20,878 nucleotides of DNA. Source: a virus. The notes under the pieces are model-generated. The model ran no database searches. It was given only the letters and a program-made list of their open reading frames with translations, and was not told the DNA's origin. The stretch is taken from positions 1-20,878 of IMG/VR virus record IMGVR_UViG_3300020213_000130; one strand, given 5' to 3'. Below, one piece after another: positions 3,001 to 20,878 of this stretch (position 1 is the stretch's first letter; each line of letters opens with the position of its first letter). The position numbers and the translations under genes are program-made.

Positions 3001-4080
3001 TTCGCCCGCGGCGCCTATTGCTTCGAGCCGAGCACGAATCAGGGCGGACTGACGAGCAGGGTCGTCGAATCCCCCATCGTTTCGAAAGAAGATGCTGGCC
3101 CCGGGCGCACTGAATCGTCGAGTGTCTGTACCTTTTTGATTCTCCTCGAACTGCCTAAGGTTGGCGTTGCGCTTGGCGGCAGCTTCGGCTCGTTTGAGTT
3201 CGGCTGAGTTGTCAAGGGCTGCGGCACGCTGGACCGCACTCAGCTTCTCGATCAGTCGGATGGCTTCTGCGATGTCCTCGTTGCTATCCGCGAAGATGTT
3301 GGCCCCGGGCGCAGTGAATCGGGACTGCCCTGTAGTGGTCAGTCGCCGCAGGTTGGCGTTGCGCTTGGCGGCAGCTTCGGCTCGTTCGAGTTCGGCTGAG
3401 TTGTCGAGGGCTGCGGCACGCTGGACCGTACTCAGCTTCTCGATCAGTCGGATGGCGTCTTCGGTGTCGTCGAGCGATCGAGGATCAACCAGGTTCAGTA
3501 CAGCTTGGCGGCGAGAGACTGGGCCCTGGTTGGTGATCTTCCGATTGGCAACGGCTGCCCGCGCTCGGGCAAGCTCGGCCCTGCTCGATAGGGTAAGGGC
3601 GTCCGCGAACCTGCGCTCTGCCTCGGTCTCTTCGCGGCGCAGGCGCGTGCGGAGTTTGCTCTGACCAGGATCCGTCTCTTCTTGCCGAATCTCCCGCTGA
3701 CGGGTGGATACGGCGAGGTTCCGGTTCAACCGGGACGACTGGAAGTTCAGCCGCTCTAGGCGTCGTTCCAGCGCCCCGGCCTCTTTCCGCACCACGGCCA
3801 AAGTGTCGGTGAAGCGGGTGAAGTTCCCGAGGCCCCCGAACTCCTTGACCGTGCGGTTGAGCGTGCGCTGGAGGGTGATGAGATCCTTCGTCTCCTTGGA
3901 GACTTGCTCTACGGCTACGAGGCTCTTCTGTGCTCCCTCCGGCGAGACGAGTCCCTGGCGCGTCTGCGCCTTGAGCGCCTTGGCATCTCCGACGAGTGTC
4001 CGGACGAGCGTTGAAAGCTCGTCCAGTAGTTCCTTACGCAGGACTTGGAACTCGATCGGGAACCGTACGCCGTCGGTCAT
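1..4080 (-). CDS. Tail tape measure protein, C-terminus cut by window edge
   Basis: The minus-strand frame is open for 1360 codons from an ATG at 4080 to the window edge, so the C-terminus is missing. Tape measure proteins set tail length and are released from the tube during DNA delivery. Visible regions are an Arg/Glu-rich helical N-terminus with an internal duplication (about residues 200-330), a tape-measure-like core (about 400-620) with an 'LATILGIDNEDI' stretch, hydrophobic Ala-rich segments (about 705-780) that could be membrane-active, a long charged coiled-coil region (about 780-1160) and a Gly-rich end with 'LTPGEFVIRK', a motif typical of tape measure C-termini. The ATG overlaps the TAA of the upstream chaperone frame by one base (TAATG), suggesting translational coupling. 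Size, position after the chaperones and coiled-coil content make the call secure. Confidence 0.93.
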   Translation of the reverse strand, partial: MTDGVRFPIEFQVLRKELLDELSTLVRTLVGDAKALKAQTRQGLVSPEGAQKSLVAVEQVSKETKDLITLQRTLNRTVKEFGGLGNFTRFTDTLAVVRKEAGALERRLERLNFQSSRLNRNLAVSTRQREIRQEETDPGQSKLRTRLRREETEAERRFADALTLSSRAELARARAAVANRKITNQGPVSRRQAVLNLVDPRSLDDTEDAIRLIEKLSTVQRAAALDNSAELERAEAAAKRNANLRRLTTTGQSRFTAPGANIFADSNEDIAEAIRLIEKLSAVQRAAALDNSAELKRAEAAAKRNANLRQFEENQKGTDTRRFSAPGASIFFRNDGGFDDPARQSALIRARLEAIGAAGEGGGNRIKKGIDGASGGFRRFNTVLNTVSRTLISVGSLTAVFAAFEAIRQGVLFGDEFERAEIQIAGIIASTGRLIDDQGQLLKPAEAFGAALGVAQEQTKKLQVDALTTTATFRELLSAFQVSIGPGLAANLGLDEIRELTVGIAQAAAAVGLPLNQLAEEIRSIFTGTISRRNTRLATILGIDNEDIKRAREAGTLFTVLQERLSGITTAAESLNTTLGQSFSNALDALSLVGARALDPLRDSLIGLTTLLQKGLNDGTATAALTGIGRALASITDGFVDLVAGLSPSLITNIAEVFEEFVRILVGAAIPALDVFITALGVVATIVEPLVTALRAIVESEFGEAILKGAAAFYILRSAGVAVVAVNVALAAATNAYAAAALKAGLASGVLSGGLRGLAALAGPIGIAVAALSLAFALFGDSASSASKEAKKQLEALRVEGQKLTREGLLVPFLEGLDEFDKVFEDAVKSVRKLRDEITTLGRQRGLSNLAAEFVKATSQTEFSFNFDAADKQIAALEKQVKDLKDIRTFDVDILDGEGNRTSLRAAIDARTVETQRKVLDLEKQRLDIVEKRQRAVLQIASVEARRITETVGNNRSELQDRLRVELAVAEAAVTINEADDDRVGILKDQLELLRQQDTLANDIAALDESAFNAILEGDFNALEDIEAAVAALEEEFRIRQGILGVQIESANIEADVKDRNRAKDLDERTQGIIRSVQASESDVASAQSAKDIAGFDPNTSIGQLQTIIAQQDDVNRRLLEQRELSQDLNITVEERNQATATSIDLESELLQLERRRLDTKKQTDFEAGFTGGVDNFRQNNQPGQIGGRLAGDILGASTGFLSDSLFTVVANAFDPNSNQSLSEALRSLVTGFGASLLKAVTDALAAQVVSSLLGTGTVVAAAGTASGGRIQGFADGGQFGVVGGPNLWNAPRGAPSTDKTLAALTPGEFVIRKSSAVALGYDFLSRLNENRLTSTDFRRMSPRLSRGVQGLALGGPVLG
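3091..3472 (-). repeat. In-frame tandem duplication inside the tape measure gene
   Basis: Two direct copies lie at about 3091-3280 and 3295-3472. The core 3161-3264 matches 3353-3456 at 101 of 104 positions with a 192-bp (64-codon) offset. The flanking part, containing 'ggccccgggcgca', has a 204-bp offset, so a 12-bp indel separates the copies. Both encode 'AAALDNSAEL' followed by an 'RAEAAAKRNANLR' helix and an 'SAPGA' or 'TAPGA' segment. A diverged third version of the helix ('SRAELARARAAVANRK') lies upstream in the protein, near 3540-3600. All differences keep the frame open. Confidence 0.9.
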
Positions 4081-4942: not shown

Positions 4943-4972
4943 GGAGTATGGTTTTGTGGGAGGCTCTAACTA

Positions 4973-5006
4973 AGCGGGGCGAGGACTCTACAGCCCTCGC
5001 CCCGCT
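4973..5006 (-). terminator. Strong hairpin after the tail tube gene, likely terminator or attenuator
   Basis: A perfect 12-bp GC-rich inverted repeat (4973-4984 with 4995-5006) encloses a 10-base loop, 22 bases after the tube gene stop. On the minus strand it is followed by TTAGTTAG rather than a full T-run, so it may be a partial terminator that lowers chaperone and tape measure expression relative to the abundant tube protein, or an RNA-stabilising end. Confidence 0.65.
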
Positions 5007-5028
5007 ATGCTACTAGGTCCGGGGAGGA

Positions 5029-7611: not shown

Positions 7612-7650
7612 CTCTGAGGTTTCTGGTTTACAGGGAGATCGGGAAGGAAA

Positions 7651-7684
7651 CCCCGTCTGCTACGGACTGACCGAACAGACGGGG
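7651..7684 (-). terminator. Rho-independent-type terminator after major capsid gene
   Basis: A 9-bp perfect stem (CCCCGTCTG at 7651-7659 with CAGACGGGG at 7676-7684) encloses a 16-base loop that can itself pair as CGG/CCG. On the minus strand it is followed by TTTCCTT. It lies 16 bases after the capsid stop at 7700. Partial termination here would let the capsid gene be expressed above the genes downstream. Confidence 0.72.
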
Positions 7685-7699
7685 CCACCTCACAGGAGA

Positions 7700-9859: not shown

Positions 9860-10432
9860 GTGTTTCTTTGGCGTAGCGGGGTTGCCCTCAGCCGATTTGG
9901 CTACGGGTGGTTGTTCGAGGGATGCCTCGTAGCAGCCCTCGGCGCAGTAGAGAGATACCTCGTTGAGGTTGCCTGCCTTCGCAAGCGCCAGGAGCGCGGG
10001 GTCCTCGATCTTAACGATCATGCCCCATGCGCCGTTGTGCTTGACGGGCAAGCCTTCTCGATCGACCTGGGGGAAACGCGCGTCCTGACCCTGGAGGATG
10101 AAGTGCTCGACCGGGTACGCCTGCTGCTTCGACAGCGGCGTGAAGTCGTGGTGCAGGTCCAACTGGGCACCCGAGCGCATGTGATAGTGCGCGGCGAACC
10201 GGATGTCTTCGGCGCTCATCCACTCGTCCTGCCCGTCCACCTTGTCGGGGACGTAGACGAGGGTATGTAGGAGACCTTCCAGGTCAGCCTTCACCAGCGC
10301 ATGGATGCACAGCGCGCCGTCCTCGCTTTTCAAGAGCGCAGGCTGTTGGTTCGCGCCCTTCGAGACCAGGGACACCAGGGAGACCTGGACTTTCCTCAGG
10401 CGGCGGGGTTTTTTCGAGGGCTGGACGGCCAT
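9314..10432 (-). CDS. Prohead maturation protease fused to scaffold (XkdF / S78-like)
   Basis: From the ATG at 10432 the protein has 372 residues. The N-terminus has 'SLVSLVSKGANQQPALLK', typical of phage XkdF-type proteases. The protease region (about 40-165) includes 'VYVPDKVDGQDEWMSAEDI', a His pair in 'LDLHHDF' (H94/H95) and a Ser in 'NLNEVSLY' (S160), the likely catalytic pair. After a linker, residues about 190-372 form a charged coiled-coil region starting 'MDEKLAEALAKMLAPF', which looks like a scaffold. It would shape the procapsid and then cleave itself and other head proteins. An alternative ATG at 10459 would add nine residues (MDRTLSDRL). I prefer 10432 because a candidate promoter overlaps the longer start. 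The gene is divergent from the portal. Confidence 0.85.
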   Translation of the reverse strand: MAVQPSKKPRRLRKVQVSLVSLVSKGANQQPALLKSEDGALCIHALVKADLEGLLHTLVYVPDKVDGQDEWMSAEDIRFAAHYHMRSGAQLDLHHDFTPLSKQQAYPVEHFILQGQDARFPQVDREGLPVKHNGAWGMIVKIEDPALLALAKAGNLNEVSLYCAEGCYEASLEQPPVAKSAEGNPATPKKHMDEKLAEALAKMLAPFQATLAELTKSVAELKAPPIVKVEVSPPTPTVDADGWPIFKGSMSNQLDVLKHTRALEDMQLGKEFEGCMKDAQALRELTKCQVKLRELRKAEDAQLGIVAAPTGGSLRKQLLGAESGTPTHMAPSGPAWMQPSDKTGHEEILKSAGDFLKSHNGRVKGQESKKGE

Positions 10433-10440
10433 TAGGCGGT

Positions 10441-10468
10441 CTGATAGCGTTCTATCCATGGAAGTCAA
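10441..10468 (-). promoter_or_regulatory. Candidate sigma70-like promoter for the head operon
   Basis: On the minus strand TTGACT (10468-10463) and TATCAG (10446-10441) are separated by 16 bases, matching TTGACA and TATAAT at 5 and 4 of 6 positions. The expected start of transcription (about 10433-10435) falls at the protease ATG (10432), so the message would be almost leaderless. The -35 lies inside the first codons of the divergent portal gene. Confidence 0.4.
10443..10456. repeat. Short palindrome between divergent protease and portal genes
   Basis: GATAG (10443-10447) and CTATC (10452-10456) form a perfect 5-bp inverted repeat around CGTT, one base before the portal ATG (10458) and ten bases before the protease ATG (10432). 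It overlaps the -10 and spacer of the candidate minus-strand promoter. It could be an operator or a start-masking hairpin; it is short enough to arise by chance. Confidence 0.4.
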
Positions 10469-11930
10469 CGAAGAGATCGAGAATCGCACAGGCGAGTCCG
10501 AGTATCGCGTAGGTGATACCGAGCAATCGTGGGTTACCACGATTTCGGGAGGGAGAGGCCCGGATCTCTTCGATGGGGTGATTCCGCCCACCTGGAGTAT
10601 TCGCCAGGCGCTCATGTCCCCGCTGCCGTCCGACGCCAAGAAGGCGCTGACCAAGCTCCTGCTCGCGCCACAGAGCAAGGGTGATGGTGCGTCGCAGAGG
10701 GAGCTGTCCTCCCTCGGTCCGGCCTACCACCCCTTCAACTTCCTGGCAGCGCAGGCGATGGAAAGCCTGTCTCCGCACCACGCCTCATGTCTCGCAACTC
10801 TCGTGGACATGACCGTGGGCCTCGGCCTGCTCGACGAGGAGTTGTACGACACACTGAACCCGCTCACCCCCGACGGCTTCGACAGCCTCATGCGCCAGCT
10901 CGTAACGGACGTGCTGGGCCTCGGTACTGGGTACATCGAAGTGGTGAGAGATCCCGGCTCGCGCCAGATCACAGGACTCCACTGGTTGCCGGGGAGAGAT
11001 ACCTACAAAGTTCTCGACGGGAGGCTCTCGGGGCAGTACCACTTCATGTACACCCAGACGGGTATGCGCGTGGCTCCGTCGGGCTCCAGCTTCGAGTTCG
11101 ATTTCGGGGGGTACATGGACCAGGCCATGTTCGCCAACTTCGCGGACGTGGATCGTCTTGCCTCGGCGCAAGGGACCGAACGTATGATCGACGCCGAGGT
11201 GCTACGTATGCGCCGCTCGCGCAACATGGACCGCGCCATCCCCTTCGTGGACTTCGGCGAGGCAATCCAGATCAAGCTCCCGACGAATCACTGGGACCAC
11301 TACGGCCGCCCGACATGGCTCGGAGCGCAGTCTTACCTGGACCTCTCCTGCGCCCACATCCAGCGCGCGGCGGACTACATGCGCAACCGGGGCACGCCGG
11401 ATCACCTGCTCGTCATGCTCGGGGTGAACCTCACCACCGAGGCGAAGGCGAGTTTGCAGGCATGTATGTCCGCAGGCAAGGGTAGGAACTTCGGCCGCAG
11501 CGCGGCCATTACCATCCCTGGAGCGAGCAATGTCAGCAAGGTCCAACTGGAGAAGTTCTCTGACGGCGTGGACGGTCTCGGCTTCCGCGAGCTTCACGAC
11601 GCTACAGCACTCGCCATCTGCTCGGCTTGGCGTGTTCCCCCGATTCTCGCAGGTATCTCCGTGCCCCGGCCGATGGGATCGGCGAACGAGTTGGTACAGG
11701 CATTGGTGCTAACCCAGACCACCGTAGTTGAGGGTATCCAGCGGCTCGTCTCCACAGCGCTCGGATGTACCTTGGGCGCACGCGGACAAGGCATCCCCGG
11801 GTTCAAGAAGGATTCCTTCCTCTTCAAGAACCTGGTGCAGCACACAGACATCGCGGCGCTGGATACTTTAGCTCGCCAGAAAGACACGAACACGCTCGGG
11901 CGCAGTCCCAAGGATGGACTCAAGAGGTAA
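10458..11930 (+). CDS. Phage portal protein
   Basis: From the ATG at 10458 this encodes 490 residues ('MEVNEEIENRTGESEYRV'). The open frame extends upstream to 10305, but that part lies opposite the protease gene and looks like antisense. Residues about 85-165 include 'LAAQAMESLSPHHASCLATL' and 'MRQLVTDVLGLGTGYIEVVR', and about 275-330 have 'HYGRPTWLGAQSYLDL' followed by 'RAADYMRNRGTPDHLLVML', the stem/wing layout of HK97-type portals. The portal forms the dodecameric DNA channel at one capsid vertex. It is on the opposite strand from all other head genes in the window. Its TAA overlaps the next ATG by one base. Confidence 0.88.
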   Translation: MEVNEEIENRTGESEYRVGDTEQSWVTTISGGRGPDLFDGVIPPTWSIRQALMSPLPSDAKKALTKLLLAPQSKGDGASQRELSSLGPAYHPFNFLAAQAMESLSPHHASCLATLVDMTVGLGLLDEELYDTLNPLTPDGFDSLMRQLVTDVLGLGTGYIEVVRDPGSRQITGLHWLPGRDTYKVLDGRLSGQYHFMYTQTGMRVAPSGSSFEFDFGGYMDQAMFANFADVDRLASAQGTERMIDAEVLRMRRSRNMDRAIPFVDFGEAIQIKLPTNHWDHYGRPTWLGAQSYLDLSCAHIQRAADYMRNRGTPDHLLVMLGVNLTTEAKASLQACMSAGKGRNFGRSAAITIPGASNVSKVQLEKFSDGVDGLGFRELHDATALAICSAWRVPPILAGISVPRPMGSANELVQALVLTQTTVVEGIQRLVSTALGCTLGARGQGIPGFKKDSFLFKNLVQHTDIAALDTLARQKDTNTLGRSPKDGLKR

Positions 11931-12505
11931 TGCCCTTCTCCAACATCCAGATACCCAGCGCCGCTGCGCTCGCGGAGATCAAGTCCCTGCTCCCGCGTGT
12001 GGTCGTGGCGGCCTACCGTCCGTTCGTGGCGCATGCGTCCCAGACACTCGCTGCGGCGCTGCGGGGGAAGGTCACGGAAGGCGGCCCCGATACGATCTTC
12101 CTGGACCTCTTCACGGGTTACTGGTGGTTCGGCGTGCTGGACGATGGGCGTAGATCCACTCGCCCGAAGACCAAACAGGTTCTGGTGTGGTTCGAGAACC
12201 CCAAGGATGACCCCCGCATAAACGGGGGGACGCGCTATCCCAAGAAGTATGAGGGTGCTAGGCGCTTGACCAAGAGGGAGTACGTCGAGGGGCTCGACGA
12301 GAACAAGCGTCGCCGCGCAGCAGGGCAGCCTCCCTTTATGATCGTCCGCGAGTTCGATGCAGGCCCGTTCCCCGGCCGTCACTTCACAGAGAAGGCTACG
12401 GCCAGGGTCTCCGCGGAGATTAGGGAGACTCTGAGAACGATCCTCGTCCCGGACATTCGTCGGCAGGTTACCGCTGAGTTGCAGCAAATGTTCAAGGGGC
12501 TCTAG
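11930..12505 (+). CDS. Putative neck / head-closure protein, gp10-like
   Basis: Starting at the ATG that overlaps the portal stop (TAATG), this encodes 191 residues beginning 'MPFSNIQIPSAAALAEIKSL'. The order of features, a helical N-terminus, a strand region 'TKQVLVWFENPKDDPRI', then 'FMIVREFDAGPFPGRHFTEK' and a C-terminal helix 'IRRQVTAELQQMFKGL', resembles HK97 gp10 and phage virion morphogenesis proteins, where a Pro-x-Arg-x-Phe motif precedes the last helix. These act at the neck or in tail completion. The frame upstream of 11930 is the portal gene read out of frame. The stop overlaps that of the convergent resolvase by four bases (CTAG). Confidence 0.55.
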   Translation: MPFSNIQIPSAAALAEIKSLLPRVVVAAYRPFVAHASQTLAAALRGKVTEGGPDTIFLDLFTGYWWFGVLDDGRRSTRPKTKQVLVWFENPKDDPRINGGTRYPKKYEGARRLTKREYVEGLDENKRRRAAGQPPFMIVREFDAGPFPGRHFTEKATARVSAEIRETLRTILVPDIRRQVTAELQQMFKGL

Positions 12506-13035
12506 TTAATCTCCGTACCCCACCAGAGAGCGATACCGATGGCGTCCCAGACATGCACGGCATCCGTGGGTCGGAAGCCAAAGCGCTTGGCAAGTTGAGC
12601 ATCGGTCATCTCGTAGGTAAACTCGCGGAGCCGGTTGTGCCGGACTTCCTTACCCCATCCCTTAGTCCAGACACCAGGGGGGGCGAAGTGGACCTGGAGC
12701 CCAGACATCATCGCAGCGATGCCCGCAGAAGCTCCAGCGATAAGGGCCAGGTTGAGGATGTTCTGGACCAGGACTTTCGAGCCCTTATCGCTGTAGTGCT
12801 GGCTCTCGATGACCACCGGGCAATCTCGACCATCTAGGATGCCCGGCAGCCTATCCGCGAGTTCCTGGGTCATCCGGACCACCTGCTCGGGACCCTTCAC
12901 TCCCTTCTTTCCAGAGGAAGTGATAATCCCGCAGTCGCGGATATCCCCCTGCTCAGCCCCCAGCACCGCCCAGGCCGTGGTGTTCACATCTGGGTCGATG
13001 CCGACGACAACGGGACTATCAACCGAGAGGAGCAT
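12502..13035 (-). CDS. RuvC-like Holliday junction resolvase
   Basis: This 177-residue protein has the RNase H-like RuvC layout: 'VGIDPDVNTTAWAVLG' with D14, 'CPVVIESQHY' with E77, and the C-terminal 'TDAVHVWDAIGIALWW' with D158, H161 and D164, matching the acidic residues of the RuvC active site and its 'DAADALAIA'-type end. It should cut four-way DNA junctions and branched replication intermediates before packaging. Its start lies inside the end of the upstream small gene (17-bp overlap), so it is co-transcribed with the polymerase. It is convergent with the portal operon. Confidence 0.87.
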   Translation of the reverse strand: MLLSVDSPVVVGIDPDVNTTAWAVLGAEQGDIRDCGIITSSGKKGVKGPEQVVRMTQELADRLPGILDGRDCPVVIESQHYSDKGSKVLVQNILNLALIAGASAGIAAMMSGLQVHFAPPGVWTKGWGKEVRHNRLREFTYEMTDAQLAKRFGFRPTDAVHVWDAIGIALWWGTEIN

Positions 13036-13396
13036 CTTGGAGCCAGAGATGGGCGTGCTTCTCGGTACGTTGGCTTTTCAGGGTCTTACCCTCGGGGAGA
13101 AGATCCTGTCTCGTGAGGTAGTGCTTGACCGCGACGTGGAGCGAGTTTCGGAAGCGGTCAGGGTCCTTGCCTGCTGGCACGACCACGGCGTGAGGTTTCC
13201 TCGTTGTCCCTTTCAGCGCGCCCTTCGCGGCCTCCACGGTGGACAGCAGCGTGGGTCGTCCGATCTGTCCTGTCTGTACCGTGGCGAGGGGCTTGGGTAC
13301 CGTGGCAACCTTGCCCTTCTTCGTGCCCTTCTTCCTGAGGGACGGGGCGACCGGCCGAGCAAGGGGCTTGAGTTTGGGGAGAGCCTTGGTTTTCAT
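13019..13396 (-). CDS. Small basic protein between polymerase and resolvase
   Basis: I do not recognise this 125-residue protein. It starts at an ATG that overlaps the polymerase stop (ATGA), which favours coupled translation. The open frame extends back to 13486, but that part is the polymerase gene read out of frame. The N-terminal half is rich in Lys, Pro and Arg ('LRKKGTKKGKVATVPKP') and probably disordered and nucleic-acid-binding. The C-terminal half contains 'DPDRFRNSLHVAVKHYLT' and ends 'EKHAHLWLQDAPLG'. Tight linkage to the polymerase and resolvase suggests an accessory role in DNA replication or recombination. Confidence 0.75.
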   Translation of the reverse strand: MKTKALPKLKPLARPVAPSLRKKGTKKGKVATVPKPLATVQTGQIGRPTLLSTVEAAKGALKGTTRKPHAVVVPAGKDPDRFRNSLHVAVKHYLTRQDLLPEGKTLKSQRTEKHAHLWLQDAPLG

Positions 13397-15711
13397 GGTT
13401 TTTTGGAGTAAAGGTCTGTGGGGTAGGGGTCGGCTGGGACCAGCCAACCCTCGGAGGTGTGTGATCTCCTCGCGTTCTTGTTCCAACGATACATTGCCAC
13501 GGCCTCGGTGCGGACCGGCATTCCGGTCAGGACTTCGCTCATAGCCGCTTCCATCGTCCGTTGGGCGTGTTTGATTGCTGCGTTGGTCAAAGCATAGTTC
13601 TCGAAGACAGGCACCTCCAAGAGAATTTCATCGTGAATCGGAGCCACGAGGTGCGAGCCGTAGAGGGGGCTTTCTTCGTTGGAGGTCTCCGAGTCAACCT
13701 CCCACTCGGCGATCTTGAAGCCCTCGCCGCTGGGGCTCTGGAGAGCGTTACCGTTGGCCGCCTCGGTATAAACACAGTTGCGTCGAACCATCCCGAGCGG
13801 GGTCGTGTACTGGAACTTCGAGATAGGCTTGTCCTCGGCGTCCAAGTCGGCCTTGTCCCAGACGAGGTCCTTGGCTTCGTTTTGGAGCCAGCCCTTGAGA
13901 TATTCGCGTGCCTCGGGGAAGGTCTGGAGCCAGATGTCCCGTGCGGCCTCGGCCTCTTCCTTCGTGATCCGGACCTGGTACGTGGCCCATGCAAACAGCA
14001 GGAACTTGGCGACGCCCAGCCCCCCTGGGAAGCCAAGCCCGACGGCTTTGGCCATCTTGCGCCACTTCTCGTAATACTCCTCGCCCTTGAGCGTCGCAAA
14101 CTGCTCGTACCGCTCGCGCGGGTCGTGCCCCGTGATAGGTGTATTCGGGTCGGACAAGTACGAGAGTTGTGCCGCGAGGTAGCCGTGGGGGTCCAGCCCA
14201 CTACAGAGAAGGTCGTACAGGACCGAGTAGCCCACACAACGCTTCCAGGTCCACGCGGCCGAGAACAACTCCAGCGCAGCGAAATCGATCGAAACGAGAA
14301 TGTAACCCTCGCGTGCGTAATAGCAGGTGCGAATACGGGGGTCTACCTGGTGGATGTTGACCGAGGGGTACAGGTCGCCGCCGTAGCTCGACGAGCGCCC
14401 AGTGTCTTTCAGCAGGTCGAAGTTCGGGTGGATCGTCTCGGCCCAGCGCACGTCCGCCGTCTCCAGCGTCCACCCCGGCGGTGGGGTCTTCGTCTCGTCG
14501 AGGTACGAAATCGCCTTCTTGCCTGTGATGTTGTGGCCGAAGTCCCAGCACAGCCCGGGGAAGTACGAGGTAACGAGCTTCTCCACCTTGGCGCGCGCTT
14601 GCATCTCGGTCGCTACCGCGTCGTCCATGCCCGCGAGCGTGCCGATCGTGCCCTTACCGGCCGAAGCCCACTCGGGATGCTCGTCGAAGCATTCATGCGA
14701 CGCCGCGACGGAGAGCTTGCGCTCCCCGTAGGCTGACTTGAATCCATCGATGCCCTTGTCTGTGAGGTCGATGCGGATAGCCAGCTCCCGGCCGCGTCGG
14801 ATGACGTGGGCTTGGAGCGTCTTCCTGGACAGGCTCTCCTTCACGGCCCGCTTCATCTTGGGCGTACCGTCCTCGTTCAAGGTGCCCTTGGCGTAGGGCA
14901 TCGGGGGCACCTCGGGGATGACGATGCCTGCTTCGACGAGGAGCGGGAAGTTATCAATGTCCATGTCTTCCTTGGCTTGTCCCCAGAGAACTTCCGCCCG
15001 ATCTGGGTCCAGGAGCAATCCCCGCTGCGTTACGCCTGTGTGGGTGAAATCCGTGCGCAGGTTGACGTACTCGGCGCTGAGTTCCCCGCCTTCCACGGGC
15101 CATTGATGGCCGTAGTCGATGCGTTCTTCCTGCGCGCGCCAGACGTACGTGGCCCAGCGGGAGTCGTCGAGCACGTAGTCCACGGCCTCTTGGGGCCACG
15201 ACGCAAGCGGCACACCCCGTAACTCGCTGTAACGCAAGCGCCAGGAGTCCTTGCCGATCTTCGATGCCTTGATGTCTTTCCCCGAGTAGCGCAGCACCAA
15301 GTCCGCGAGGGAATAGGACTTGGACATCATGCCCCCGTCCGGGGTCGTGTCGAATCCGATGGCCCCGTGTGTGCCAAGATCCAGGAACTTCTCGCGCAAC
15401 GAGGGGTCGCCCACCATGCCGGTGTTGTAGAGCTGCTTCACGAGCGGAAGCAAACTAGGCCAAGCGTTACATGCAACCCGCAAGTCAAACGCGAGGTACT
15501 GGTTGACGAGCCGCGCGTCTCCCCGGATGCATGATTCGAGGATACCCCGCAGGATTCCTTCTACGTCGTGCTCGCCCACCACCAGGAGATCATACTGGTC
15601 CTGCTCCTCGTAGTACGCCGACACGCACACGGGCGGCGGAAACTGCGCAGCGGGGGAGATGATGTCCGTTTCAAAGTCAATTGAGACAATAGGTATCGGG
15701 CAACGTTTCAT
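13393..15711 (-). CDS. polA: Family A DNA polymerase with 3'-5' exonuclease
   Basis: This 772-residue protein has an N-terminal exonuclease domain with 'VSIDFETD' (D12, E14) and a polymerase domain. Motif A is 'ILVSIDFAALELF' (D476), motif B is 'RKMAKAVGLGFPGGLG' (R551, K555) and motif C is 'APIHDEILLEV' (D694), so the catalytic residues are all present. No 5'-3' exonuclease domain is seen. Compared with E. coli Pol I, the residue at 762 is Leu (L559) and that at 766 is Gly instead of Tyr, and the O-helix carries a Pro. Leu762-type enzymes are known from virioplankton. It should be the phage replicase, working with the helicase encoded upstream. Its TGA overlaps the next gene's ATG. The gene symbol denotes the family. 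Confidence 0.93.
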   Translation of the reverse strand: MKRCPIPIVSIDFETDIISPAAQFPPPVCVSAYYEEQDQYDLLVVGEHDVEGILRGILESCIRGDARLVNQYLAFDLRVACNAWPSLLPLVKQLYNTGMVGDPSLREKFLDLGTHGAIGFDTTPDGGMMSKSYSLADLVLRYSGKDIKASKIGKDSWRLRYSELRGVPLASWPQEAVDYVLDDSRWATYVWRAQEERIDYGHQWPVEGGELSAEYVNLRTDFTHTGVTQRGLLLDPDRAEVLWGQAKEDMDIDNFPLLVEAGIVIPEVPPMPYAKGTLNEDGTPKMKRAVKESLSRKTLQAHVIRRGRELAIRIDLTDKGIDGFKSAYGERKLSVAASHECFDEHPEWASAGKGTIGTLAGMDDAVATEMQARAKVEKLVTSYFPGLCWDFGHNITGKKAISYLDETKTPPPGWTLETADVRWAETIHPNFDLLKDTGRSSSYGGDLYPSVNIHQVDPRIRTCYYAREGYILVSIDFAALELFSAAWTWKRCVGYSVLYDLLCSGLDPHGYLAAQLSYLSDPNTPITGHDPRERYEQFATLKGEEYYEKWRKMAKAVGLGFPGGLGVAKFLLFAWATYQVRITKEEAEAARDIWLQTFPEAREYLKGWLQNEAKDLVWDKADLDAEDKPISKFQYTTPLGMVRRNCVYTEAANGNALQSPSGEGFKIAEWEVDSETSNEESPLYGSHLVAPIHDEILLEVPVFENYALTNAAIKHAQRTMEAAMSEVLTGMPVRTEAVAMYRWNKNARRSHTSEGWLVPADPYPTDLYSKKP

Positions 15712-15740: not shown

Positions 15741-15823
15741 ACCCTCCCCCGGCACGCACACTCGAAGGACTCGCCCGAAGAGGGGGTGGCGAGAGGTGGT
15801 TCCTTCGAGTACCGAGGGAGGGT
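15741..15823 (-). terminator. Nested three-stem structured element before polymerase gene
   Basis: Three nested perfect stems are seen: 15741-15748 with 15816-15823 (8 bp), 15760-15769 with 15801-15810 (10 bp) and 15770-15775 with 15788-15793 (6 bp). The second and third stack directly on one side, with a 7-base bulge on the other. On the minus strand the outer stem is followed by CTTTATCC, so it may act as a terminator after the beta-helix gene; it lies in the 174-bp gap that precedes the polymerase gene. It could also be a processing site or a leader structure. Confidence 0.6.
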
Positions 15824-15885: not shown

Positions 15886-17127
15886 CTACTGGATCTCGTA
15901 GCAGCCCAGGTCAATAGCCGCCCCGACGAACCGGGGATTCCCCAGGAGGTCAACGGGGCAGTCTTCGAGGAAGTCCCCGTCGTTGTCCAGGTCGAACACA
16001 TCCGGAGCTGCCGCGCGCATCTGGGTGCCCGTGCCACCCGCGTCGCGCACGGGGGAACCGTCGGTCGGGATGTACGAGCCTTTCATGAGCTGCGGAGGCA
16101 CCAGGAGCGTCTGCGTGCCGTTCGGGTAGAAGAATGCCGGGAGCCCGCCACGCACTAACGAGTGCATGAAGTAGGTGTGCAGGAAGTACCCGCCAAACAT
16201 CTCCGGACCCTGAAAGCCGCTCCAGACCACCATGTTGACAAACTCCATGTGCCCTGGAACTGAAACGGTATTCTCGGAACCCAGCGCATGTCTAGGATTG
16301 ATAGTAGAGGTGGCTTGGTTGTCCACGAGAGTCACCCCGTACATGGAAATGCTCCCGGGGATGCCTCCAATCTCTGCGCGCAGCCCACCTGTCGACTTTC
16401 CCCGGCATCCGTGAATCAGGATGTTCTGACCCACAATCTCCCCATCCCCCGCGACGAAGAGGTGCATGCCCCCCACGCCAGTGTCGCTCGTACAGTTGCG
16501 GACGATTACGTTGCATAGGCTTGTACGATCGGTGCTGCCGACGTACATTCCGCCCGTATAACCGGCGGCCGAGGCGGAACAGTCCATTACCTCGACCCGT
16601 AGCAGATTGAGGGTACCGCCTGAGTTTCCAGCAGAAATACCTTGCCCTCCGTGACAATTCTGCACACGTACGTCCTCCAGTGTTGTAGTGGCGAAGGGTC
16701 CTCCATCGAGCCAGATCCCCCAGATTCCCCCAGAAACCACGACAGACTTGAGTTTGACAGACGAGCCGTAGTTCTGGATCACCACGACAATCTGGCAGAT
16801 GCCGTTGCCTGTAAGCACCGTTGCGTACATTCTCCCCGTAGGGAAACGCCAGTGATCGCCTGACCGATACCCTCCCACCACTGTCGTGTGACGCGGGATG
16901 TTGAACCTGTCTCCCAACAAAGCCCCCGGGGAGTAGCTGCCCTCCGCGACGCAGACTTGATCGGGGCCAGGGGTGAGGTCCGCGCGCAGCAGCGCGTCCT
17001 GAAGGCCCTGGTGAGCGTTCTGCCAGGAAGTACCCGCGCCACCAGGGGAGGCGTTCGAGTCCACGTAGATGATGTCCGCGTGCGCGGGGACGACTAGCGC
17101 CAGGAGCACGGTGAGGATGTGTTTCAT
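15886..17127 (-). CDS. Exported right-handed parallel beta-helix protein
   Basis: This 413-residue protein has a Sec signal peptide (MKHILTVLLALVVPAHA, likely cleaved before Asp18). The mature part starts 'DIIYVDSNASPGGAGTSWQ' and then 'NAHQGLQDAL', the opening of beta-helix proteins with 'YVDx..GTSWxxA..LQxAL', and continues with repeated short strands ('LNLLRVEVMDCSAS', 'SLCNVIVRNCTSDT', 'GQNILIHGCRGKST'). Near the end it has 'DLDNDGDFLEDCP', an Asp-rich loop like calcium-binding dockerin or thrombospondin loops, and 'AAIDLGCYEIQ'. Several Cys residues suit an oxidising compartment. I know such proteins as secreted or surface proteins of Planctomycetota, Verrucomicrobiota and similar bacteria. 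Within a phage replication block it looks like cargo, possibly altering the host surface. A tail-spike role is less likely given the signal peptide. Activity is unknown; no lyase residues were identified. Confidence 0.8.
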   Translation of the reverse strand: MKHILTVLLALVVPAHADIIYVDSNASPGGAGTSWQNAHQGLQDALLRADLTPGPDQVCVAEGSYSPGALLGDRFNIPRHTTVVGGYRSGDHWRFPTGRMYATVLTGNGICQIVVVIQNYGSSVKLKSVVVSGGIWGIWLDGGPFATTTLEDVRVQNCHGGQGISAGNSGGTLNLLRVEVMDCSASAAGYTGGMYVGSTDRTSLCNVIVRNCTSDTGVGGMHLFVAGDGEIVGQNILIHGCRGKSTGGLRAEIGGIPGSISMYGVTLVDNQATSTINPRHALGSENTVSVPGHMEFVNMVVWSGFQGPEMFGGYFLHTYFMHSLVRGGLPAFFYPNGTQTLLVPPQLMKGSYIPTDGSPVRDAGGTGTQMRAAAPDVFDLDNDGDFLEDCPVDLLGNPRFVGAAIDLGCYEIQ

Positions 17128-17151: not shown

Positions 17152-17181
17152 GGGGGGACCCCGTCAACACAGGATCCCCCC
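17152..17181 (-). repeat. GC-rich inverted repeat upstream of beta-helix gene
   Basis: GGGGGGA (17152-17158) and TCCCCCC (17175-17181) form a 7-bp perfect inverted repeat with a 16-base spacer, in the 97-bp gap between the beta-helix start and the preceding stop. A second smaller one, GCCCG (17192-17196) with CGGGC (17206-17210), lies next to it. Neither has a T-run on the minus strand, so a terminator is uncertain. Confidence 0.45.
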
Positions 17182-17224: not shown

Positions 17225-17839
17225 TCACTCGAAGGTAGCCTCGTCGCCGTAGGTAATCCGCGTGACGTGTACCCCATTATCCGTGGTGTACGGATAGAAC
17301 GTCATCTCGAAGCAACGACCCTCATACACGCCGTCCAGGACGGCATCGAGCAGATCCGGTCCGAGCGTCTGTTCATCATCAGGCAGCTCGGAATCAGCGA
17401 CCATCTGCTCTTCGCTCGGCTTACCGAGTCCGAAGGTGATCTTCGCCATCTCGGTCTTGTAAACGTCCATGTTCTTCGTCGTGAAGAGAATGGTAAACTT
17501 GTACCCGACGGACTTGTTACCCGTCGTATCGAGGCTCTCCATAACCACGCACTCTTGACGGAACACGTCGCCGGTGTTGTCTCGGTTGCGGAACATCTCG
17601 GCCTTGCCGAGACGAATCAGGTAACGCCCCTCCATATCGAAGTGGGCAGGATGGCGGTCCGCACCGGGCACGACCCCTCGAAGGAAGTCGCCGCGACGAG
17701 GGGGCTCGGCAGGAGCAGGAGCAGGGGCTTGGCGACGGGTAGACGTGGTAGGGGCAGACGCGGGCTTGTTGGCGGCACCCGGCAACTTCGCAGCGGAGGC
17801 ACCCGGGAGCGGGCGCATGTTCGGACGATTGGTAACCAT
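17225..17839 (-). CDS. Possible single-stranded-DNA-binding-type replication protein
   Basis: From the ATG at 17839 this encodes 204 residues. The first 55 are a Pro/Ala-rich, probably disordered tail ('ASAPTTSTRRQAPAPAPAEP'). The rest is a compact strand-rich domain: 'HFDMEGRYLIRLGKAEMFRN', then 'FRQECVVMESLDTT' and 'VGYKFTILFTTKNMDVYKTE', an acidic helical insert, and 'GRCFEMTFYPYTTDNGVHVT' with an acidic end. The pattern (a 'GRYLIRLGKAE' strand, an extended middle, an acidic tail) suggests an OB-fold-like binding protein such as those encoded beside phage polymerases and helicases, but I see no diagnostic motif. It is the first gene after the promoter at 18022-18049. AGAGA lies eight bases before the ATG, a weak ribosome site. 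Confidence 0.6.
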   Translation of the reverse strand: MVTNRPNMRPLPGASAAKLPGAANKPASAPTTSTRRQAPAPAPAEPPRRGDFLRGVVPGADRHPAHFDMEGRYLIRLGKAEMFRNRDNTGDVFRQECVVMESLDTTGNKSVGYKFTILFTTKNMDVYKTEMAKITFGLGKPSEEQMVADSELPDDEQTLGPDLLDAVLDGVYEGRCFEMTFYPYTTDNGVHVTRITYGDEATFE

Positions 17840-17878
17840 GATGTATCTCTTTTTTCTTGGGTAACTGGTACTTGCCCC

Positions 17879-17953
17879 GGGACACACGTCCCGCGGCGTC
17901 TATCGAATCAGAGGAGATTCTTGCGGGTCGGATCGAAGCCCGGCTGACCGGGC
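17879..17953 (-). other. Structured 5' leader with three small hairpins
   Basis: Within the 225-bp gap between helicase and the next gene, three perfect inverted repeats follow the candidate promoter: 17938-17953 (6-bp stem, TCAG loop), 17905-17920 (5-bp stem) and 17879-17892 (5-bp stem, GTGT loop). The leader of about 175 bases contains no coding region I can support. Confidence 0.45.
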
Positions 17954-18064: not shown

Positions 18065-20071
18065 TTATTGAGCAAACCTCTGGAGCAGCTCGCGCTGCTG
18101 CTCGTCGGTAAGCATCGCCACGTTCGGGATGCGCTCGGCGAGCATCTGCGGGGGGTAGAGGTGCGGGGGCTTCACGAACGCGGCGGACATGAGGCGACGA
18201 CTGGAGCGGGTGGTCTGCTGGACGTACAGGGAATCTACCAAGGTTGCAGCGAAAAGCATCTGGTCGAAAGCTATTTCTTCGTCGCCATAGTCCCTCTCGG
18301 GGGCAAGTAGGGTATAGACCGTTACCTCGTCTTCCTCCTGACCCTGGCGGTGTTGCCTACCTATAGCCTGTTCCACGACATCCTCCCCCCGTGGCCACTG
18401 GAGGAACGCGGCGGTCGAGCCCCACTGAAGGTCCAGCCCTTCCCGCCAGCCGTTGTAGTTGAGCACGTAGAACCTCTCCGGGGTCTTAATGGCCTCGGTC
18501 TCGGTCAGGAGGATAGCGACGCGCTTGTCCCCGCTGGGGCAGTCGAGCACGTCGAGCCCTTCGGCCTTGAGCCGCTCGGCTGCCCATACGCGCATCTCGT
18601 TGTGCCCGACCCACACGAGCGCGCCGCGCTTCTCGTCGTTCGCATGCTGCACAGCCCACTTGGCCAGGGCATCGACCTTGTACGGCGACACACGCACCGG
18701 CACGGACTTCCTTTCGATGAGTCCTTGGAAGTCCGCGAGTTCCTTGGCTTCCTTCCAGAGCCGGTACAACTCGGCCGCGAGCTGCCCGCGCCCCTTCATG
18801 CGCCGGAAGTGACTGCCCACTAGGAAAGGCGTATCCAGCCCATCCTTCGGAAAATCTAGGTAAACCCGAAGGAGCTTGTGGTAACGCTGCAACGCCTCGT
18901 GGTGGTCCTGCGAACGCGCGAGATCGTCCACGCGGTCCGATGCGATCTTATCTGGCCAGCGGAGATCGTTATAGAAGCCCGCCGACAACTCCAGCATCCA
19001 CTTGTATTTGTGGAGCGCGAACTCGATCTCATCGCCGCTCGGGGTAACCCCAAGGTGTTGCACACCGTACATGAGTTCCGCGAGGTTATCTGGGATCCCC
19101 CCCGGCGCGATGTTATCTATGATGAGCGGACAAGGCAAGTCCCCTGGTGGTGACGAAATGACCCCGAGGGTACTCGTGAGCCGGAGGTTGAACGCACGAC
19201 GGACCTGGGTTTGCTTGTCTTCCCCCAGGTTCTCCTCGGTATACATCACCTTGGCCCAGTCCACTAGCGGGGTCAACTCGCGGATCATGCCCTGTGTGTC
19301 CCAGATTGCGTTGGCGAGAAACTGGAACGAAGAGCCCTTGGCGTCGATGACCGCGCCCCAGCGTTGCGCCTCCGGGAAGGACAACGGCAGCGGGGACATG
19401 CCCCCGAGCACGACGGCGGCGAGGTGGAAGTAGTCCTTGAGCCCCCGGCGAGTCATGGTGCCGGACAAGAACGCGATGGACAGGAACTCCGAGTCAATCG
19501 TCTTGATGTAGCTGAACAAGCGACGTGATCCCGCAGCCCTTGCGTTACGGAGTCGGTGGGCCTCGTCGCAGATGATGGCTGTTGGCTTGATCGCCGCGAG
19601 GAACGCGGCGGTGTCTTTCAGGCTGAGGTGCGAGTACGGCAGGATGTACACCCCAGGGCGCGCGAGCTTGGCCATCGCATTCCGTTGCGCCACAGACTTA
19701 CCGGAGGTCGTGTGGATTTGATGCTTGAACCCTAGCCACTCCGCTGCCTCGCGCCTGCCCTTACTGAGAAATTGAGTGATAACATTATTGGGGGTGAGGA
19801 TCAGAACCCTCTCGTGACCTTGCTCCTTGACGGCGATCTGTGCGCAGCCATAGGCAATGGCGGTCTTACCCACGCCGACGCCACAGAGAACAAACGCCGA
19901 ACGGGTAGACGCAAAAGTTTCCAGGGCTAGAGCCTGTTGTCCGTTAAGGCCCTTGAACTTACCTCGAACGGCTCCAGCGGGGCATCGCTCATGTGTGACC
20001 TCTGCGATCCACTCGGGGGTTAGTTCATCGAGTACAGGTAAATCGAGGACCCGCTGGAGTTCTTGGTTCAT
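18065..20071 (-). CDS. SNF2-type superfamily 2 helicase
   Basis: This 668-residue protein has helicase motifs in order: Walker A 'CGVGVGKTAIAYG' (64-70), 'LILTPNNVITQF' (motif Ia region), DEAH box 'AIICDEAHRLRN' (169-172), motif III 'FLSGTMTRR' (203-205), and a C-terminal domain with 'NYNGWREGLDLQWGSTAAFL' and motif VI 'QAIGRQHRQGQ'. It should be an ATP-driven DNA translocase or helicase in phage replication or recombination. Similar SNF2-like proteins are common next to phage DNA polymerase genes. Its ATG overlaps the TAA of the upstream gene (TAATG), and GAGGG lies eight bases upstream, one of the few ribosome-site-like sequences here. Confidence 0.9.
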   Translation of the reverse strand: MNQELQRVLDLPVLDELTPEWIAEVTHERCPAGAVRGKFKGLNGQQALALETFASTRSAFVLCGVGVGKTAIAYGCAQIAVKEQGHERVLILTPNNVITQFLSKGRREAAEWLGFKHQIHTTSGKSVAQRNAMAKLARPGVYILPYSHLSLKDTAAFLAAIKPTAIICDEAHRLRNARAAGSRRLFSYIKTIDSEFLSIAFLSGTMTRRGLKDYFHLAAVVLGGMSPLPLSFPEAQRWGAVIDAKGSSFQFLANAIWDTQGMIRELTPLVDWAKVMYTEENLGEDKQTQVRRAFNLRLTSTLGVISSPPGDLPCPLIIDNIAPGGIPDNLAELMYGVQHLGVTPSGDEIEFALHKYKWMLELSAGFYNDLRWPDKIASDRVDDLARSQDHHEALQRYHKLLRVYLDFPKDGLDTPFLVGSHFRRMKGRGQLAAELYRLWKEAKELADFQGLIERKSVPVRVSPYKVDALAKWAVQHANDEKRGALVWVGHNEMRVWAAERLKAEGLDVLDCPSGDKRVAILLTETEAIKTPERFYVLNYNGWREGLDLQWGSTAAFLQWPRGEDVVEQAIGRQHRQGQEEDEVTVYTLLAPERDYGDEEIAFDQMLFAATLVDSLYVQQTTRSSRRLMSAAFVKPPHLYPPQMLAERIPNVAMLTDEQQRELLQRFAQ

Positions 20072-20878
20072 TACCGAATCCCTCGAACGACTCGCGCCGC
20101 CTTGGCTTCAAGCACGGACACGAGCAGAGCCATGTCGAGATCGGGCACGGCACACACGAGGAACGAACCCGGCTCCAGGTCGGCGATGATGTTGTCCGCC
20201 GTCTGCACGAGCAAGTCCTTACGCTTCCAGGTATCCATCGCCCAGTAGTTCGAGCCTGATTGAGTGCCCAACTCCTCGCGGATCTCGTGGACGATCCTGG
20301 TCAGGTCTGTCCCCACGACTCCCGACAGGGCAGCGCCCAGGACAAGCGTGAAGTCCGCCGCAACCGCTTCCCCAGCCAGCTCCACCTTAGGCGTCGTCCT
20401 CGTGACGCGCTCCAGGTAGGCCGGGGCGGCACGCGGTACCGCGCCTGCCGGCGGCACGGAGGTCTTGTTCTTCGCACCCTTGGGGCGGCCGGGGCCCCGC
20501 TTGACGGGCGCGGTCTCCAGCTCAACCTCTTCGTAGGTTGTCTCCGAGACCTCTGCTGCGGCCGGAGCTTCCTCGGCCTCGCCTTCCTCGATCTGGTTGC
20601 ACTCCCACTCGCCCATCGGGTTGAACCCCACATGCCAGTTGGTCGGGAGATCGCCGTCGCGGTCGTCCTGCTGCGAGGTCCAGTTGATGCAAGCGTTACA
20701 CGGCGCGAGGTTCTTGGTGACGCCCACGCCACCGCAAGAGACGCATTCGGGGTTGCGCCAGGGCACGAGCCCCACGCGGCGCACGCCGCCCACTTGCTGG
20801 AGGCTGTAGACGTTGTAGCGGTAGTCGCCGTCCGGACCGGTCTCCAGCAACTCGGGCTTCACAGGGGCAACCCTGACG
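20071..20878 (-). CDS. Zinc-finger / AT-hook protein, possibly cut at window edge
   Basis: The frame is open to the window edge. A GTG at 20862 would give 263 residues, but the true start may lie outside. Residues 40-58 (counted from that GTG) hold a C-x2-C-x11-C-x2-C cluster ('CVSCGGVGVTKNLAPCNAC'), a likely zinc-binding site. Residues about 90-120 are acidic, and 121-133 are an AT-hook ('KRGPGRPKGAKNK') that binds the minor groove of AT-rich DNA. The C-terminal part ('NYWAMDTWKRKDLLVQTAD') is an unrecognised helical domain. A DNA-binding accessory to the helicase it is coupled to by a one-base overlap is plausible; function is not known. Confidence 0.72.
   Translation of the reverse strand, partial: VRVAPVKPELLETGPDGDYRYNVYSLQQVGGVRRVGLVPWRNPECVSCGGVGVTKNLAPCNACINWTSQQDDRDGDLPTNWHVGFNPMGEWECNQIEEGEAEEAPAAAEVSETTYEEVELETAPVKRGPGRPKGAKNKTSVPPAGAVPRAAPAYLERVTRTTPKVELAGEAVAADFTLVLGAALSGVVGTDLTRIVHEIREELGTQSGSNYWAMDTWKRKDLLVQTADNIIADLEPGSFLVCAVPDLDMALLVSVLEAKAARVVRGIR

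Follow-up and report, generated by a model that had tools for sequence, protein, structure and literature searches.

A secreted-type, choice-of-anchor-Q-like beta-helix protein encoded within the replication operon of a tailed phage

Why should a gene for an apparently exported beta-helix protein lie among the replication genes of a phage? The question is raised by a window that comprises an entire IMG/VR virus record (20,878 bases); the phage is known from DNA alone. An earlier note on this DNA had read the gene as cargo taken from the host that changes the surface or envelope of the infected cell. The gene belongs to a leftward operon with the order unknown gene (20071-20862), SNF2/DEAD helicase, g17225, beta-helix gene, family-A polymerase and RuvC-like resolvase. 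To the left of the operon lies a tailed-phage set of portal, protease, capsid E, tail tube and tape measure genes. The operon features are as follows.

18065..20071, minus strand: SNF2/DEAD helicase (family search)
17225..17887, minus strand: upstream gene g17225, ssDNA-binding-like by synteny only, with no family match of its own
17152..17181, minus strand: upstream hairpin of 13 bp with a 4-nt loop, 24 nt before the start codon
15886..17127, minus strand: exported choice-of-anchor-Q-type beta-helix gene, 413 aa (ORF call, homology, AlphaFold2)
15741..15823, minus strand: long downstream hairpin, before the polymerase
13393..15711, minus strand: family-A DNA polymerase, next downstream of the beta-helix gene (family search)
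12502..13035, minus strand: RuvC-like resolvase (family search)

The gene is thus flanked, as had been described, by a putative DNA-binding gene (g17225, so assigned by synteny only) and by the polymerase; the true start of g17225 is probably near 17842. The portal gene (10305-11930, plus strand) is divergent from the capsid and tail genes and converges on the replication operon. Most window genes have no clear Shine-Dalgarno sequence ahead of the start codon. The encoded protein was divided into the following parts.

17077..17127, minus strand: signal peptide MKHILTVLLALVVPAHA, residues 1-17 (rule-based test; leaderless tail versions; homology from residue 18)
16804..17076, minus strand: conserved N-terminal unit, residues 18-108 (alignment)
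16090..16803, minus strand: beta-helix body, residues 109-346 (AlphaFold2, VIA-align)
16405..16656, minus strand: cysteine ladder, with codons for C158 (16654-16656), C183 (16579-16581), C212 (16492-16494) and C241 (16405-16407)
15889..16089, minus strand: C-terminal choice-of-anchor-Q-like region, residues 347-413 (NF041518, 18.8 bits; cut-off 25)
15973..15993, minus strand: DLDNDGD loop, residues 379-385, recurrent in the family

Export was assessed with a rule-based signal-peptide test, not with SignalP; 4 of the 216 ATG frames of the window satisfy the rule. The leader MKHILTVLLALVVPAHA, followed by D, combines a positively charged n-region with a hydrophobic core and an A-x-A site (AHA), and its peak 9-residue hydropathy is 3.24, compared with at most 1.7 in 12 other window genes. 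In the relatives described below, the homologous domain starts at about residue 18 of the phage protein, which is where the leader ends. Two phage proteins with the same domain, L140 (starting MATIYVKYDATG...) and L141 (starting MAIIYVSNLATG...), begin directly at the domain (M-A-x-I-Y-V) and have no leader; the leader has therefore been added in the secreted form only. The signal peptide with its AHA site, as first noticed, was therefore confirmed from three sides, and the presence of an export signal is supported.

Structure prediction with AlphaFold2 on 44 sequences (the phage protein and its relatives) gave a right-handed beta-helix with pLDDT 80.5 and pTM 0.85. A single-sequence model was poor (pLDDT 43) and was discarded, its PDB matches being meaningless. 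AlphaFold2, Foldseek and VIA-align agreed on the beta-helix that had been recognised from the repeated strands. When the structures listed by Foldseek were compared with the predicted model by VIA-align, the best matches were BT_1002 (Z 25.3, 287 aligned, 3.3 Å), a PL6 lyase (Z 24.6, 289 aligned, 3.1 Å), Pel9A (Z 23.7, 306 aligned, 3.8 Å) and a rhamnogalacturonan lyase (Z 23.4, 298 aligned, 3.1 Å), with tailspikes at Z about 20. The most similar solved structures (Z 23.4-25.3) are thus mostly glycan enzymes, as would be expected if the protein were a secreted polysaccharide-active enzyme (lyase, hydrolase or esterase) degrading extracellular glycan of the host or of its neighbours. But identity to these structures is only about 10-14% and many families score alike, because of which the matches to the predicted model are read as a generic fold that gives no pointer to function. 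The helix body also lacks conserved catalytic-type residues: conservation across the family falls on turn Asn, Gly and hydrophobic residues, and the only conserved acidic site, position 127 (D in 95% of the family), is Lys in the phage protein, a substitution that speaks against a shared active site. No Pfam or NCBIfam enzyme family matched the beta-helix protein. An enzymatic role is accordingly judged unlikely.

Both ends of the protein bear features of its family. The N-terminal unit carries the motif YVD..A..G.SW.NA..LQDAL...VAEG.Y.P...GGY...R...T.LTG, and the exact C-terminus matched profile positions 21-58 of the 58 in NF041518 (choice-of-anchor Q) with 18.8 bits and E 0.0014, below the 25-bit cut-off. 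The same profile was matched by 41 of the 44 members of the family alignment, and homology to domain-carrying bacterial proteins spans the whole mature unit, with 21-32% identity in full-length alignments. The phage protein is a divergent single-unit member of this bacterial type of secreted beta-helix protein. In the C-terminal region D393, R399 and G408 are invariant and G396, D406 and E411 nearly so. The DLDNDGD loop seen at the outset is present; it is a regular trait of family C-termini (DLDGDG..P.D...PR) rather than a binding loop of a special kind. The protein ends ...DLGCYEIQ, with no sorting or anchor signal beyond the domain. Its bacterial relative L094 likewise stops at the C-terminal motif, so an anchor is not required in single-unit members. 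Literature searches did not find an established function of choice-of-anchor-Q proteins, nor anything relevant on phage-borne choice-of-anchor proteins or on planctomycete phages.

Single-protein searches of phage records, viral contigs and genome collections returned no relative; relatives were reached by alignments alone. A plasmid match in Runella led to multi-unit Runella proteins, each unit of which aligns with the whole mature phage protein. An alignment-based genome scan found at least 216 relatives; most of the best 80 belong to Planctomycetota and Bacteroidota, and some to Chloroflexota and further phyla. Choice-of-anchor-Q matches numbered 3 to 100 per genome in six genomes, all Planctomycetota by title. 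The best single full-length match, L094 (58 bits), is a stand-alone protein of 433 aa with a signal peptide from a Planctomycetota genome. Matches occurred in 17 of 61 genomes of the family of L094, whereas a Planctomycetota sample gave 27 of 294 and the Runella phylum 14 of 296. Within a 77-unit tree the phage protein, on a long branch of its own (1.72), grouped with L094, L114 and L115 (support 0.934); these are stand-alone proteins of one planctomycete family, of 433, up to 488 and 454 aa, and leaders are evident in L094 and L115. The nearest full-length relatives are hence bacterial, as the proposal of a host-derived gene had led one to look for. Since the planctomycete family was sampled for the tree because the best hit came from it, planctomycete descent is taken as likely only.

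The host was also approached through prophages. A SNF2 profile found nothing in 294 Planctomycetota genomes, a search run without a positive control and of little weight, and capsid searches yielded 1 weak hit in 294 genomes of Planctomycetota and 2 hits in 296 genomes of the Runella phylum.

Nine Cys residues were counted in the beta-helix protein, where several had been remarked upon. Four of them (C158, C183, C212 and C241) occupy the same ladder position on consecutive rungs, after the strands (V-R-V-Q-N-C, V-E-V-M-D-C, V-I-V-R-N-C and I-L-I-H-G-C), and the fifth rung (V-T-L-V-D-N) keeps N270. Columns 183 and 212 hold Asn in 43 of 43 relatives, and column 241 in all 36 that have a residue there; column 158 lies in a poorly aligned stretch. 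The chance of Cys at three given sites is about 8e-6 (nine Cys in 396 residues), a figure that is indicative only, the sites having been noticed first. Judged from the alignment, Cys in place of the Asn ladder has no counterpart among the relatives examined, and Cys stacked in this way would be suited to forming disulphides outside the cytoplasm.

Whether the gene is an addition to the operon was examined in phages with the same replication order. SNF2 helicase, a small gene and polymerase follow one another in ctsHD2 (MW202816.1) and in viral contigs L090-L093, which are distant relatives with 24-30% identity; in ctsHD2 the small gene is ssDNA-binding-like (phrog_378, weak). The beta-helix gene is absent from the slot before the polymerase in all five. 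In its place ctsHD2 has small ORFs, one of them annotated RelE-like, L090 a DNA methyltransferase-like gene (phrog_56; D12 class below the Pfam cut-off), L092 a winged-HTH gene and L093 a phrog_24928 gene; in L091 the slot is empty. Because four of the five hold different small genes there, the slot is a variable cargo site, and the view of the gene as cargo gains from both its absence and this variation. In L093 a 65-bp direct duplication of the polymerase start (63/65; 2781-2845 and 3380-3444) encloses the phrog_24928 gene, possibly an insertion scar at the same cargo slot. In ctsHD2 a gene annotated as pectate lyase (L086:2103-3434), with no obvious signal peptide and no PHROG match, lies beside the replicative helicase.

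Inverted repeats in both flanks had been taken to fit a separately inserted unit. Hairpins are indeed present (z about -3 and -4.4), each folding on its own; the two do not form a single inverted-repeat pair. As marks of insertion they are ruled out by equal or stronger ones at 7612-7699 (z -5.1, after the capsid gene) and 4943-5028 (z -5.5, after the tail-tube gene), and such hairpins seem to punctuate the genes of this phage as a matter of course. At 24 nt from the start codon, the upstream hairpin leaves little promoter room, and no sigma-70-like site was found in those 24 nt. A 15-nt direct repeat flanking the gene (15754-15768/17221-17235, 13/15) is near chance by a rough estimate.

With no relative in other phages that share the replication module, and no close one in the collections searched, the gene might be a passenger without a role for the phage, by recent capture or as an assembly chimera. 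But foreign composition was sought and none was seen: GC is 0.608 against 0.615 for the phage, and the codon score lies inside the range of the other window genes, near its low end. The ORF is moreover intact and on the same strand inside the operon, and we consider a mere passenger very unlikely.

The domain itself is not confined to bacteria; five viral contigs carry it. The domain protein of L138 adjoins a major tail protein gene, in L140 a gene nearby matches tail spike and virion structural families, and L141/L142 encode a large domain protein whose neighbours have no clear role; a structural protein of Cellulophaga phi4:1 matched weakly. In L005 (6987-9464), a phage-like fragment that is probably a prophage edge in a planctomycete, portal/capsid-like and transposase-like genes lie beside a beta-helix protein with a LEPRLLLS motif, which is known from planctomycetes. 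Virion use of the choice-of-anchor-Q domain is plausible in these other phages, which keeps alive the explanation that the present protein is a fibre, spike or decoration of the virion whose gene stands by chance among replication genes. Tailspikes among the fold-similar beta-helices, and several phage structural proteins among the BFVD matches, agree with it. The signal peptide, missing from L140 and L141, does not, nor does a mature protein that is one secreted unit throughout; the gene, too, lies outside the structural module and is missing from phages with the same replication genes. None of the traits of tail fibres and tailspikes (virion-attachment domain, tail-module location, leaderless start) was found in the protein. 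A leaderless tail version, which the earlier note had named as evidence against cargo, was seen in phages unrelated to this one (L138, L140, L141) and not among its relatives. We regard a virion protein as quite unlikely.

Taken together, the gene very probably encodes an exported accessory protein of bacterial type, and the envelope, not the virion, is probably where that protein works. Accessory envelope cargo of bacterial descent is the best overall explanation, to which we give about an even chance. The gene would be a moron-like accessory gene in a variable slot of the replication operon, encoding a single-unit secreted beta-helix of bacterial, probably planctomycete-type, descent. The protein would be synthesised alongside the replication proteins and pass through Sec, with cleavage after AHA17 and folding outside the cytoplasm, where the four stacked Cys could pair between neighbouring rungs. 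As there is no sorting signal or membrane anchor past the C-terminal motif, the mature protein is expected to stay in the periplasm, to be released or to be attached loosely to the surface. There it might bind or mask an envelope polysaccharide or receptor without enzymatic action, so that competing phages would be excluded or the infected-cell surface changed. Surface masking or superinfection exclusion specifically is a tentative proposal, favoured because the protein is predicted to be exported, lacks conserved catalytic-type residues and is of a surface-protein type. That all parts hold at once, with a captured planctomycete-type protein bearing a cysteine ladder, made during replication and remodelling or shielding the infected-cell surface, is doubtful; if true, choice-of-anchor-Q proteins would be a new class of phage envelope-modifying cargo. 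A phage exporting such a protein during infection would give a handle on the function of that family, and, within this replication module, the cargo slot preceding the polymerase would merit a survey.

Among known systems, the choice-of-anchor Q proteins (NF041518; Planctomycetota, Bacteroidota, Chloroflexota) share with the phage protein the N-terminal YVD..GxSW..A motif, the beta-helix body, the C-terminal D..G..R......D.G.YE motif and a signal peptide. Unlike them, the phage protein is phage-borne, consists of one unit without a further sorting region, has Cys for Asn in four rungs and matches NF041518 below the cut-off. The tail-region proteins (L138, L140, L141/L142 and, weakly, Cellulophaga phi4:1) have the same domain and are also found in phages, but are large, stand in or near tail regions of unrelated phages and have no signal peptide where the start is visible (L140, L141). 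The replication module of ctsHD2 is alike in SNF2 helicase (24%), ssDNA-binding-like gene, family-A polymerase (27%), RuvC and their order, and differs in having small ORFs (one RelE-like) and no beta-helix protein before the polymerase. The Ltp lipoprotein of Streptococcus thermophilus phage TP-J34 is an example of a superinfection-exclusion surface protein (PMC3952083). Unlike Ltp, the present protein has no lipobox or anchor, and no lysogeny genes were seen in the 20,878-base fragment. Phage morons and superinfection-exclusion proteins of this sort resemble the present protein in being phage-encoded, exported and accessory, with a predicted action in the envelope.
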